Below are positions 33,002-37,672 of a DNA stretch of 64,000 nt, in pieces; position 1 is the stretch's first letter, and each line of letters opens with the position of its first letter. A program made the translations under genes and the position numbers. The notes below the pieces were generated by a model that worked only from the letters and a program-made list of their open reading frames with translations, did not search any database and was not told where the DNA came from. Source of the DNA: Bacteriovorax sp. MedPE-SWde (GTDB lineage Bacteria; Bdellovibrionota; Bacteriovoracia; Bacteriovoracales; Bacteriovoracaceae); NCBI GenBank assembly GCA_001874305.1, contig MPCU01000012.1, forward strand, positions 1 through 64,000, given 5' to 3'.

Positions 33002-33379
33002 ATGAAAAAGATGATACTAGCATTACTTATTACCTTTTCAGCATTTGCAGATAATACTGGGTGGAGTGGAAGAATTCTTGCGAACCCTGAGTTTAATGAT
33101 CAAGTAAGAACTGAAATCGTAAAATCTTATAAGTCTAAATGTGGTACATCTTCTAAGGATTTTGAATTACCTCCTATTGTTCTAGTATCTGCAAAAGAGT
33201 CTACTTTCGGTTACCTTGGAACTGAAGCTCCTGTGTTCACTGTAACTCTTAGAACTTTTAGTGCTGTGATTTCTGACTATGTAGAACAGAATTTTGATAT
33301 TGAAGTTCAATACAATAGTCTTTTAAATAAATTTAAAGTTAAGTACGATCAAGATTTTAATTTAGAGTGTATTGATTAA
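33002..33379 (+). CDS. small secreted protein, unknown
   Basis: 125 residues. A signal peptide (1-16, SAFADN) precedes a ~108-residue mature domain with two cysteines (SKCGTSS and the C-terminal ECID) that could pair. Strand-rich segments (VFTVTLRTFSAVISDY, FDIEVQYNS) suggest a small beta-sandwich. GAGAGA precedes the ATG. It stands alone, divergent from the TIGR02147 gene and overlapping the convergent DOMON-like gene by 4 bases. No family is recognised. Confidence 0.7.
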   Translation: MKKMILALLITFSAFADNTGWSGRILANPEFNDQVRTEIVKSYKSKCGTSSKDFELPPIVLVSAKESTFGYLGTEAPVFTVTLRTFSAVISDYVEQNFDIEVQYNSLLNKFKVKYDQDFNLECID

Positions 33380-33921
33380 TTATATTCAAGAAAACTATCT
33401 GGGTGATGAAAATTTGGTCTTTCGTCCTTATGAGTAATTGCCCAATAACTTAAGTCCTCATCTTTTCCATCATTACTTTTTAATACTGCCGTTAAAGAAT
33501 ATTTTAAATTGTTTAAATCTTTAAACTCTTCAAAGAGAACACTCTTTGGGATTATAACTTTCATTTCTATTTGATTAGAACTTTTATCAAAATTTATTTT
33601 AAAGTTTCCTTCAAAAGACCATTGCGTTAATTGATCTATGTTATTTCTAAATTCAAAACAATTCCAGTCTAGCGATGGTGAGAAGTTAAACTCCATATAT
33701 TCTTTTGGATCATTCTTTCTAATAAAGAATTCAAAACAGGTTCTTTCCCACAGGCCTATTATGCGTTGTGGATTATCGGATATTTTGGAAGTGATGATCT
33801 TACTTGTGTCACCTGTAATATGGTAGGTGAGCTCTATTGAATCGCATTGAACAACTATCCCCGCATTAAAGTTATAGGGATAGTTGTTTGCTTTATATGG
33901 TAAGAGTTTATGCTTAGTCAT
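33376..33921 (-). CDS. DOMON-like domain protein
   Basis: 181 residues, one CBM9/DOMON-like beta-sandwich. Family-like landmarks are GLWERTCFEFFI, YMEFNFSPSLDWNCFEF and, at the end, LSYWAITHKDERPNFHHPDSF. Such domains bind sugars or haem in other settings; this stand-alone bacterial group has no assigned role. There is no signal peptide, so it should be cytoplasmic. It starts 3 bases after the slipin stop and is the last gene of the nfeD-slipin operon. Confidence 0.78.
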   Translation of the reverse strand: MTKHKLLPYKANNYPYNFNAGIVVQCDSIELTYHITGDTSKIITSKISDNPQRIIGLWERTCFEFFIRKNDPKEYMEFNFSPSLDWNCFEFRNNIDQLTQWSFEGNFKINFDKSSNQIEMKVIIPKSVLFEEFKDLNNLKYSLTAVLKSNDGKDEDLSYWAITHKDERPNFHHPDSFLEYN

Positions 33922-33924
33922 CTA

Positions 33925-34683
33925 CTACTTAGATTTTCCTTCCATAAACTTATTTAAGAAATCAACTGGTAGAGGGAAGAATGTTGTTGATTTTCCTTCA
34001 CCTGAAGAAATTTCTTTCATTGTATCTAAGTATCTAAGTACTATAGCATTTTGATGACGTCCCAGTATTTCTGCCGCTTCAGAGAGTTTGATAGATGCTT
34101 GAAGTTCACCTTCTGCTGAGATTACTTTAGCTCTCTTATCTCTTTCAGCTTCGGCCTGTTTTGCCATTGCTCTTTGCATTTCTATTGGAAGGTCAATCGC
34201 TTTAACTTCAACAGCTGAAACCTTAATTCCCCAAGGCTCAGTTTGTTCATCAAGAATAGCTTGTAGCTTCATATTGATTTGTTCTCTCATTGAAAGAATT
34301 TCATCTAGCTCGAACTGTCCAATAACTGATCTTAGAGTTGTCTGTGCAATTTGTGCTGTCGCTTGTAGATAGTTTTCTACCGCAATTACTGACTTTTCAG
34401 GATCTTCAACTCTAAAGTAAACAACACCATTTACTTTCAGTGTAACGTTGTCCTTAGAAATGATATCTTGAGATGGGATATCCATAGTGACAGTTCTTAG
34501 ATCACTTTTTTGCATTTTTTCTAGGCCTGGGATAATAAAAATCAGACCTGGACCTCTGACGCCAGTTAAACGACCTAGAAAGAATATAACACCACGTTCA
34601 TATTCTTTAAGAATCTTAACTGAGTTAAAGATTAGAATTATTAAAAAGAGGGCAAACGGTAAATAAGGTCCTAATAAGCTCAT
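33925..34683 (-). CDS. slipin/stomatin family (SPFH domain) protein
   Basis: 252 residues. A membrane hairpin (~1-25) precedes the SPFH domain: [45 protein letters not shown], and an Ala/Glu-rich helix [20 protein letters not shown] used for oligomerisation. AAGGAG precedes the ATG. Slipins form membrane rings and are classically paired with NfeD-type proteases, as here, where nfeD lies upstream on the same strand. The ~200 bases before this gene hold an unusual foldable region. Confidence 0.92.
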
Positions 34684-34760
34684 TCCTACTCCTTGGAATT
34701 AATATTTTTTGAATTGACATAAAACTGACAAAGCCTTGACTCTTAACCGATGTAAAGGAC

Positions 34761-34808
34761 AGAGGGGCCGTGTAATATAGTTACATGAGTTAGCGGCTTT
34801 CGCCCTCT
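34761..34808 (-). promoter_or_regulatory. nested hairpin upstream of the slipin gene
   Basis: Three stacked stems: AGAGGG 34761-34766 with CCCTCT 34803-34808, GCCG 34767-34770 with CGGC 34794-34797, and TGTAA 34771-34775 with TTACA 34781-34785, closing on a 5-base loop. The segment 34796-34809 is also perfectly complementary to 34967-34980 inside the small ORF, so two exclusive folds are possible in the mRNA. The rest of 34684-34881 is AT-rich leader. Confidence 0.5.
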
Positions 34809-34881
34809 CTCCCTCATTCTTTGTTTGATGTGTCGTCTCTTAAAAACTCACAACATTGATAGAAGGTCGTTAACCATATTT

Positions 34882-35019
34882 TTAAAACTTTGCTAAATTA
34901 GCAGCCCACCTCTTAAGTTCATTCCTAAACCATGTAATTTCATTTACTCCCACCTCAGAAGCTTTTGAGAGGGCGAAAGCTATCGACATAACTTGAGATA
35001 AAGATTTTTTAGTTATCAT
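34882..35019 (-). CDS. 45-residue small ORF between nfeD and slipin
   Basis: The ATG at 35019 shares a base with the nfeD stop (TAATG) and has AAAGGA six bases upstream inside nfeD, a good translation signal. The predicted peptide starts MITKKSLSQVMSIAFALSKA and ends in an amphipathic, Trp-containing helix (ITWFRNELKRWAANLAKF). No homologue is recognised. Its codons 12-17 hold one arm (34967-34980) of a perfect 14-bp inverted repeat whose other arm is at 34796-34809. It could be a real small membrane-active protein or a leader peptide whose translation controls slipin expression. Confidence 0.6.
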   Translation of the reverse strand: MITKKSLSQVMSIAFALSKASEVGVNEITWFRNELKRWAANLAKF

Positions 35020-36341
35020 TAAGTATCCTTTCTTTTTGATATTTGAAGTGTCAGGTCTCTATTTTTACATAATACTTCAACTTTGTCTCCAATAACTAGA
35101 TTTTGTGGACCTGTTGATTTCCAGAATTCTCCGTGTGACTTAATCATATACTGTCCATTGTCATTTACTTCAACAATCTCTCCAAATCTTAGGTTATCTT
35201 CGTTAAACTTGTGAACACCTATGGATTTTCGGGCCTTCATAAAGAAATAGAAAACTATTGCCATGAAAGTGAGTATTGCAGCTAAGACCGACATTATGAC
35301 GGAGAATGAGACACTCATATAACTATCATCCGTCCTAAAGAGAAACATTGAGCCTGCAACTAAGCAGGTGGTCGCTGCTATAGAGAGTATTCCAAAACTG
35401 GTTATATATATTTCTAATATAAAGAGAATAAAGCCGAGGCAAATAAGAGCTAGCGCTCCTAAATTTAGGGGTAGAACTTGAAAGCCGATACCTGCAAGGA
35501 CAAGACATACGGCTCCAATTGATCCTGCGAGGAAGCCACCAGGGGCCTGAAACTCCATATATATAAGAGCTGCTCCGGCAAGAAAGAGGATATAGGCCAA
35601 ATTTGGTGAACTAAGAATATTAAGAAGTCTTTGGCCTAAGTCCATGACTGCTTCGACAATTCTTGGTGAAGTATTCATTTTTAATGAAAACTCTCTTCCT
35701 TGTAGTTTAACTTTCTTTCCATTGATCTTCTTAAAAAGCTCTTTTTGATTTGCAGCAAGTCCATCTATTATTTTTAACTCTAGGGATTCATCTGCACTAT
35801 AGCTCTTTGCTTCTTGAATCATTTTTTCAAAAGGAATAGCGTTCTTTCCGTGGAGTTTTGCCTGAGAGCGTACAAGTGCTGCAATATCATTGATTGCCTT
35901 GGACCTAAGGTCTGAGTTCTTCTTTAAATCTCCTGACGTAGAGATTGGAGTCGCAGCTCCAATATTTGTACCTTCTGCCATATAGAGCAGGTGTGAGCTA
36001 CTTGCGATAATTGCACCGGCACTGGTGGCCGATGCCCCTGAAGGACCGATCCAAATAACGGTAGGCTTTTCACTGCTTGAAAGCTTTATCATTATTTCTT
36101 TGGTCGTAGAAACAAGTCCGCCCGGTGTGTTCATCTGTATTACATAGGCGTCGACATTTTTGTGTTTTGCCATGTTGTGTTTAAGGTAGTTTAGAGTTGC
36201 GGGATTAATAGATGAATCAATATTAAATTTGAGTATGCTATTGATTTCGTATACATTGTCATCTTGCGCTTGAGCAAACGATGAGATGAACATCAGTAGA
36301 GCAATTGTAATTGCCCTGAATGTTAAAAGATGGTAATTCAT
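35019..36341 (-). CDS. nfeD: NfeD family membrane-bound serine protease (ClpP class)
   Basis: 440 residues. The signal peptide is ~1-25 (FAQAQ). A ClpP-like protease domain follows: VIQMNTPGGLVSTTKEIM, IGPSGASATSAGAIIASS with the probable catalytic Ser in SATSAG, and GAATPI. The likely Lys is in the following ~50 residues. Four to five membrane segments occupy ~250-370. The C-terminal ~65 residues are the OB-fold NfeD domain (FGEIVEVNDNGQYMI). In characterised pairs the NfeD protease cleaves the C-terminus of its stomatin partner, encoded downstream here. Confidence 0.93.
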   Translation of the reverse strand: MNYHLLTFRAITIALLMFISSFAQAQDDNVYEINSILKFNIDSSINPATLNYLKHNMAKHKNVDAYVIQMNTPGGLVSTTKEIMIKLSSSEKPTVIWIGPSGASATSAGAIIASSSHLLYMAEGTNIGAATPISTSGDLKKNSDLRSKAINDIAALVRSQAKLHGKNAIPFEKMIQEAKSYSADESLELKIIDGLAANQKELFKKINGKKVKLQGREFSLKMNTSPRIVEAVMDLGQRLLNILSSPNLAYILFLAGAALIYMEFQAPGGFLAGSIGAVCLVLAGIGFQVLPLNLGALALICLGFILFILEIYITSFGILSIAATTCLVAGSMFLFRTDDSYMSVSFSVIMSVLAAILTFMAIVFYFFMKARKSIGVHKFNEDNLRFGEIVEVNDNGQYMIKSHGEFWKSTGPQNLVIGDKVEVLCKNRDLTLQISKRKDT

Positions 36342-36370
36342 TTTTCCCTTCCTTAAATTATGGAGAACGT

Positions 36371-37672
36371 ATGAGCTTATATAGAGTTATTTTCGCTGAT
36401 TTTTTGAATCCTATAAACGATAAAAAGTGTGATTTCTTAAAAAAACACGCAATTGTTGCGAAGCGGTATAAAAATGGACATAAAATCATAGATATTTGCC
36501 CTCAAAGTCAGGCAGAAGAGTTCATATCTAAGAAGAAGTCTGTCGAAATTATAGATATGTCTGGGAAGATTTTAATTCCTGGTCTGTATGACACACACTT
36601 TCATTGGGTACAAGATGAAGTTCGTACAATGCCAAAGGACAACCTTTTAAAGTGGTTAGAAAACTATACATGGCCATATGAGAATAACTTCAAGAAAAAG
36701 GCATTTGCTAAGAAGAAAGCAAAGAGCTTTGCTCAAGAGTTAGCTGCATGCGGTACTGTTGGTGGAGCATGTTATGGATCAATTCATGCTCACAGTGTTG
36801 ATGAAGCACTAGCGAACTTCGTAGGTGATTACGTAGTTGGTAATGTACTCATGACGATGAACTCACCTGATTATCTTTTACAAAAGGAACAGGATGCTAA
36901 GGATATCGTTACGGAACTTTCAAAAAAGTATAAGAAGCAATATGCGATGACTCCTAGGTTTGCAATTACAACAGACCCAGAGACAATGTCCCATGGAGCT
37001 AAAGTCGCTAAGAAGAACGGAAGCTTTATACAAACGCACTTAAGTGAAACTTTAAATGAAATAGATTTTGTTCTTTCAATATATAAAGACGTAAAAGGTT
37101 TCGAGAAGATCAAAACATACACTGAGATATACGATAAATGTAATCTGTTAGGGCCTAAGACTATTATGGGGCACGGAATCTATCTTTCTCCAAAAGAACT
37201 TAAGAGACTTGGTGAAACACAAACTGCCGTTGCTCATTGCCCGACTTCAAATGCTCCTCATAAAGAGCTTGGTCTTGGCTCTGGTCTCTTTGATTATAAG
37301 AAAGCAAATCGTTATAAAGTACCTTGGGCACTAGCAACTGATATTGGAGGGGGACCTTTTCTTTCAATGTTAGATGTTATGAACTCTTTTGTTGATCAAA
37401 ACTCAAAGCGTGGCCATAAAGATACTTCATATACACAAGCTCTTTTTAGATCTACTCAGGCCGGTGCAAATGTTCTTGGTGTCGGAGAGGAGAGTGGAAA
37501 CTTCGCATCAGGAAAGTACCTAAATTATGTTGTACTTGATGGTGTTAAATATAAAGACTCTGATAAGTCTGAAGACGTTTTAAAGAAGCTTATAAAGCGT
37601 AAACAAAAAGACCGTTTTCAATTTGAAGAGATGGTCATCTCGACTTCCTATAAAGGATCAATCATTCACTAG
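36371..37672 (+). CDS. guaD: guanine deaminase (amidohydrolase)
   Basis: 433 residues from the ATG at 36371 (MSLYRVIFADFL), with TGGAGA upstream; an earlier in-frame start would overlap nfeD. Zinc ligands and motifs of the ATZ/GuaD group are visible: DTHFHWVQDEV, WLENYTWPYE, QTHLSET, GHGIYLS, HCPTSNAPHKELG and ATDIGGGPFLS. It converts guanine to xanthine and ammonia, useful to a cell salvaging or degrading prey nucleic acid (inference). Monocistronic, with a strong terminator. Confidence 0.88.
   Translation: MSLYRVIFADFLNPINDKKCDFLKKHAIVAKRYKNGHKIIDICPQSQAEEFISKKKSVEIIDMSGKILIPGLYDTHFHWVQDEVRTMPKDNLLKWLENYTWPYENNFKKKAFAKKKAKSFAQELAACGTVGGACYGSIHAHSVDEALANFVGDYVVGNVLMTMNSPDYLLQKEQDAKDIVTELSKKYKKQYAMTPRFAITTDPETMSHGAKVAKKNGSFIQTHLSETLNEIDFVLSIYKDVKGFEKIKTYTEIYDKCNLLGPKTIMGHGIYLSPKELKRLGETQTAVAHCPTSNAPHKELGLGSGLFDYKKANRYKVPWALATDIGGGPFLSMLDVMNSFVDQNSKRGHKDTSYTQALFRSTQAGANVLGVGEESGNFASGKYLNYVVLDGVKYKDSDKSEDVLKKLIKRKQKDRFQFEEMVISTSYKGSIIH

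Follow-up and report, generated by a model that had tools for sequence, protein, structure and literature searches.

The spacer upstream of the slipin gene in the window (the whole 64,000-nucleotide, or 64-kb, stretch of DNA analyzed in this study) probably holds a small RNA gene on the plus strand that is activated by a VxrB-type regulator, is an analogue of VadR, and likely acts via a C-rich loop. Considering the sequence comparisons and analogies presented here, a probability of about 0.72 is assigned to this reading. It is built on features that emerge from comparison among genomes, namely a stem, the strand to which that stem belongs, a conserved triple TTGAC repeat, separate copies, and the same triple before a kinase gene. 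The small RNA appears to be previously undescribed; no Rfam matches were found in the window, in positions 34600-35100 at E ≤ 5, or in 8 related loci, and a search of the accessible literature returned no paper on a small RNA in Halobacteriovorax or on VxrB together with an sRNA and Bdellovibrio. The source of the window is related to Bacteriovorax sp. DB6_IX (Bacteriovoracaceae; 88% slipin identity). Hereafter G000 denotes the window's own genome, G004 that of DB6_IX, and g1 the window's genus, and the family set comprises 129 genomes. The positions of the features discussed are given in Table 1.

Table 1. Features of the nfeD-slipin locus, in window coordinates
Feature	Position	Strand	Basis or remark
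slipin (Band_7/SPFH)	33925-34683	-	Pfam PF01145, E 6.4e-40
TTGAC-N6-CTGAC-N6-TTGAC triple direct repeat, 11-nt period; putative VxrB-box-like operator	34714-34740	+	score 14/15
-10-like TATAGT of the putative small RNA promoter	34775-34780	+	by eye; consensus match only
Candidate small RNA	34789-34874	+	13-bp closing stem, 34789-34801 with 34862-34874
Spacer arm of inverted repeat	34796-34809	-	on the plus strand, small RNA nt 8-21
C/U-rich unpaired stretch GCCCTCTCTCCCTC, putative target-binding region	34802-34815	+	unpaired in plus-strand folds of G000, G004, and G003
U-rich tail CATATTTTTAAAA after the closing stem, possible terminator	34875-34887	+	sequence
45-codon ORF (sORF), conserved small protein gene	34882-35019	-	no Pfam or NCBIfam family
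Second arm of inverted repeat	34967-34980	-	sORF codons 14-18; mRNA letters equal small RNA nt 8-21
nfeD (NfeD1b-type membrane protein)	35019-36341	-	Pfam PF24961 and PF25145 above cut-off

An earlier note on this DNA had proposed an RNA switch between nfeD and slipin, read on the slipin mRNA, and a conserved structured RNA is indeed present between these genes. When the closing stem was compared among G000, G004, and G003, all 39 cells were paired on the plus strand and 31 of 39 on the minus strand, with all 8 unpaired minus-strand cells being A·C mirrors of plus-strand G·U pairs. Because these minus-strand failures become G·U on the plus strand, the conserved fold is assigned, on comparative grounds, to the plus strand, opposite the slipin operon; the strand evidence within g1 comprises 5 variable pairs in 3 genomes. 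Across ten elements, plus-strand reading gave 13 G·U versus 1 A·C cells (binomial 0.0009, with relatedness ignored). Plus-strand folds also stood further from shuffles than minus-strand folds in all 4 spacer-bearing g1 species, with z of -2.38 against -1.59 in G000, -5.71 against -2.96 in G004, -5.28 against -2.87 in G003, and -4.41 against -3.51 in G002. The corresponding plus- and minus-strand values in genus g3 were -4.5 and -2.08 (G076), -3.32 and -1.94 (G074), -1.56 and +1.4 (G077), -3.73 and -1.29 (G007), and -1.72 and -1.67 (G075). Both sides of the g3 stem had changed in 4 of 12 pairs among 5 sequences, and in 6 of 12 pairs (10 such cells, 1 of 500 shuffles) once a second G077 copy was included; the structure is thus conserved with compensatory changes on the promoter's own strand, as is looked for in a small RNA. 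On the slipin strand, a three-way-junction RNA with a GNRA hairpin at first seemed conserved; it was rejected because the A·C mismatches of its closing stem read as G·U on the plus strand. The G000 element, folded on the slipin strand, was not clearly beyond shuffles (z -1.34, 20 of 200). The asymmetry of G·U versus A·C cells can reassign a conserved fold from the strand first assumed to its complement. The loops of all 10 elements are 52-67 nt long and G-poor (3-12% G), with tracts of the CCCUC, CCUCC, and CCUACC types, and a terminator tail is clear in G002 (TCCCCTTAGTTTTTTCTTCTTATTTT), possible in G000, and weak in G004.

The stem is preceded on the same strand, at 61-75 nt, by the triple TTGAC repeat (at -75 from the RNA in G000, where its score of 14 out of 15 was reached by 0 of 500 shuffles). 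A triple scoring 13-14 of 15 lies upstream of slipin in 9 of the 13 loci examined, from two genera, and is missing from G015, BSW11_IV, L056, and L052. Counterparts of the -10 sequence occupy the same place in G003 (TATACT) and in genus g3 (TATAAT or TATACT), and the third box lies approximately 11-15 nt more distant from the -10 in G000 and G004 than in the others. A putative promoter of its own with regulator sites, a further feature sought in a small RNA gene, can thus be recognized from sequence in 9 genomes and in the second G077 copy. The strict pattern TGTCA-N6-TGTCA has 2 matches in the window's own genome, here and before a VxrA-like kinase gene, compared with 3 for a control pattern; therefore, there is no large regulon of that strict form, and an E. 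coli-type Pho box regulon was rejected. Relaxed triple patterns missed the known sites because single boxes vary.

The kinase gene forms an operon with a PhoB/OmpR-type regulator gene (L170:2252-4500, contig G000:C8), and the upstream region of this operon carries the same TTGAC triple, which suggests autoregulation. The kinase matches VxrA best (NF041841, 172 bits, with the next family at 52) and is called only VxrA-like because this score falls under the equivalog cut-off of 750. Its DUF3404 sensor domain, which we take to be the mark of VxrA, is borderline (PF11884, 25.1 bits with a cut-off of 25). TTGAC repeats with an 11-nt period, scored without the AAAA part of the VxrB motif, precede the kinase gene in 14 of 16 genomes (shuffle p ≤ 0.024), the two misses being G077 (p 0.506) and G012 (p 0.062). 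The VxrB motif is reported as TTGACAAAA-N2-TTGAC, and the V. cholerae sRNA VadR is described as driven by three VxrB-type sites at its promoter (PMC7695739).

The full module, consisting of the triple, the -10, and a stem closing a C-rich loop, is found at the slipin locus in 9 genomes from two genera, plus one solitary intergenic copy. The solitary copy was found by R2, a structure-only model of the g3 stem-loop that holds no promoter, as a second element in G077 (E 6.5e-5) with the triple at the same -61; it lies between convergent genes at L220:2072-2163 (G077:C2:318071-318162), its neighbors being a TPR gene and a fliW-like gene with a csrA-like gene behind it (named by eye). R3, a model of promoter plus RNA trained on genus g3 only, recovered the element of G002 where it was expected and on the expected strand (E 4.8e-4) and, among the 129 genomes searched and with rough calibration, returned intergenic elements in G127 (E 9e-4) and G010 (E 1.8e-3), which are candidates and not proof. 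Candidate modules from two further genera, each between genes and with a triple TTGAC and a long stem, were noted at L229:1501-1655 and L228:1501-1671. G000 was missing from the R3 results at E ≤ 0.5, as were the spacer RNAs of G003 and G004. A further model, R1, returned with confidence only its three training members and no new member in the 129 genomes, and none of the additional weak hits examined, at 12 R1 loci and 10 R2 loci, carried a significant triple (lowest shuffle p 0.05). No copy of the element was found in congeners G001 and G005. A dispersed repeat was rejected after a DNA search of the window's own genome gave one copy; an attC site, a group II intron, and a type I toxin-antitoxin system were rejected on core order, length, and protein character.

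There are several potential alternative explanations for this element. It may be a cis-acting 5' leader of a same-strand gene in g3, left as a remnant after loss of that gene in the window's genus, and a same-strand ORF does lie downstream of the stem in 5 of 5 g3 genomes, starting approximately 60-100 nt away. At g3 loci L156, L157, L158, L159, and L161, the sORF and slipin flank a MazG-like gene (by eye) of the opposite strand, with the small RNA module ahead of it. However, no same-strand gene follows the second copy in G077 or the candidates in G010 and G127, all of which are intergenic, the spacer-bearing species of the window's genus retain the stem and promoter without that gene, and G000 and G004 are 88% identical over their best-matching stretch while synonymous positions have diverged. 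A 5' leader is accordingly considered unlikely.

It is less likely again that the stem is a bidirectional terminator of the sORF operon beside a regulator site, with no regulatory RNA. Several g3 genomes do carry a short, closing-stem-like GC hairpin after the sORF (in G075, AGCGACCTC..GAGGTCGC), and in G002 the stem is followed by a T-run. Against this explanation, g3 genomes carry both the sORF hairpin and a separate promoter-linked element, the loop is long compared to that of a usual terminator, and conservation extends to both the composition of the loop and the upstream triple.

The genes around the element are arranged on the minus strand in the order nfeD, sORF, slipin, and the synteny amidohydrolase - nfeD - sORF - slipin - 181-aa gene (window 33376-37672) is common to genera g1 and g3. 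Outside genus g1, nfeD and slipin are mostly adjacent without a gap, and G001 and G005 are without the spacer, with slipin starting at most 16-18 nt after the sORF. The slipin ribosome site (window 34682-34699) could form a 5-bp hairpin, ATTCC-AAGGAGTA-GGAAT, with the Shine-Dalgarno sequence in its loop; this possible hairpin is identical in G004 and absent from G003 and G002. Matches to the sORF occur in 18 of the 129 family genomes (tblastn, E ≤ 0.1), 3 of them (G113, G124, and G059) with in-frame stops. The sORF stands directly 3' of nfeD in all six congeners (5 by search, G002 by eye), and its homologues occupy the same locus in genera g3, where the nfeD-to-sORF distance is approximately 1.3 kb, and g11. 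It appears to represent a small protein family of about 45 aa that accompanies the nfeD-slipin locus in three genera. Judged by this conservation, the 45-codon ORF is a gene for a conserved small protein and not a leader peptide, which speaks against the leader-peptide logic that the earlier note had proposed.

How such a VxrB-type-regulated small RNA would be made and would act, from regulator binding to its targets, is inferred as follows. Envelope stress would activate the VxrA-like kinase, encoded elsewhere in the genome, and its PhoB/OmpR-type partner regulator would bind the triple TTGAC repeat and activate the promoter with its -10 near 34775. The transcript would start near 34787, on the strand that, by sequence, is antisense to a read-through nfeD-sORF-slipin operon mRNA; its long closing stem would present the C-rich, G-poor loop in single-stranded form, and it would end at the stem and U-rich tail. 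Other small RNAs, taken as models, suggest that the loop would base-pair with target mRNAs at purine-rich Shine-Dalgarno regions, where the CCCUC, CCUCC, and CCUACC tracts could mask Shine-Dalgarno sites. A 14-letter part of the small RNA recurs in the sORF mRNA of G000 and G004 (Table 1); therefore, the small RNA would not pair with the sORF there. This identity is either coincidental or an elaboration that arose later in the G000/G004 pair. A scheme in which the sORF copy masks the small RNA site of the spacer, sORF ribosomes expose that site, and the operon acts as a translation-gated sponge or target of the small RNA is improbable.

The earlier note had started from the inverted repeat itself, and its description of the repeat was exact: the two arms are 14 nt each, 100% complementary, and 157 nt apart, and no other perfect inverted repeat in the window is 14 nt or longer with a span of at most 336 nt. 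Dinucleotide shuffles of the window (n=60) contained a mean of 0.2 such repeats and none with at least 8 G/C per arm, and in shuffles of the 336-nt region a 14-nt repeat was reached in 2 of 3000, close to the chance of below 1 in 1000 that had been estimated. The complementarity is not chance-like. The 14-mer occurs once per strand in the window's own genome and in that of the sister species, G004, and is missing from the other 4 of the 6 congeners. On the slipin strand, the long-range helix has a pairing probability of 0.65-0.74 in G000 and 0.97-1.0 in G004, and forcing it gave folds better than those with the sORF arm unpaired by 8.8 and 13.4 kcal/mol, respectively. Around the arm, G000 and G004 share all 8 sORF codons, which is the longest identical run across nfeD, sORF, and slipin, compared with a same-residue codon match of 46-51% in nfeD and slipin; this is mild evidence for constraint at the nucleotide level.

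These observations could suggest a switch on a read-through nfeD-sORF-slipin mRNA, in which the two arms pair with each other and sORF translation sets the fold and slipin expression. However, the earlier note had named the lack of conserved pairing in related genomes as an outcome that would speak against it, and this is largely what was found: no counterpart of the long-range helix appeared in slipin-strand folds of G003 and G002, G001 and G005 have no spacer in which it could form, and no compensatory change in the helix was seen. The sORF-spacer duplex energy exceeded shuffles only in G004 (whose value was reached by 5 of 300) and fell within them in G000 (118 of 300), G003 (172 of 300), and G002 (97 of 300). 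Folds of 361-nt and 199-nt segments on the slipin strand were no better than shuffles (z -0.35 and -0.28). The competing local nested hairpin was present in the slipin-strand minimum-energy fold at the proposed place, but it is not conserved in G004, where the alignment has unrelated sequence in place of its 3' half. In addition, some 100 nt separate the spacer arm from the slipin ribosome site, and the region before slipin yielded no terminator, terminator/antiterminator pair, or sequestering partner. Finally, the constrained structure is on the plus strand, so both arms would not be on one transcript. A leader-peptide switch is not the best reading of this locus and is the least probable of those considered, with very little chance of being correct.

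If the VxrB-type-regulated small RNA is confirmed, it would represent a family of regulated small RNAs from marine predatory bacteria that lacks an Rfam entry, and would offer a concrete promoter, regulator, and transcript for testing. Among known systems, leader-peptide attenuators resemble this locus in having a short ORF and, on the slipin strand, RNA pairings that exclude each other; they differ in that the ORF here is kept as a protein across genera instead of being a leader ORF without its own function, no terminator/antiterminator pair was found before slipin, and the alternative pairings are confined to 2 of 6 congeners, with the local hairpin lost in G004. Small RNAs with C-rich loops that mask Shine-Dalgarno sites exist, such as the CcsR RNAs, which likewise hold a G-poor loop with CCUCC/CCCUC-like tracts in a stem; the sORF here is not a DUF1127 protein (no Pfam match), and the likeness is one of loop and stem. 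Compared to the envelope-stress two-component system VxrAB/WigKR, the kinase here matches VxrA best over both sensor and kinase parts, with DUF3404 just above its cut-off, an OmpR/PhoB-type partner, and TTGAC repeats before its own gene, although its 172 bits contrast with an equivalog cut-off of 750. The closest comparison is VadR of Vibrio cholerae, which shares a promoter with three TTGAC-type sites and a VxrAB-like cognate pair (PMC7695739). The present element belongs to another phylum and another genomic place, and its likeness to VadR concerns promoter and regulator; if the reading is correct, the link between VxrB-type regulation and a small RNA would extend from Vibrio to another phylum.
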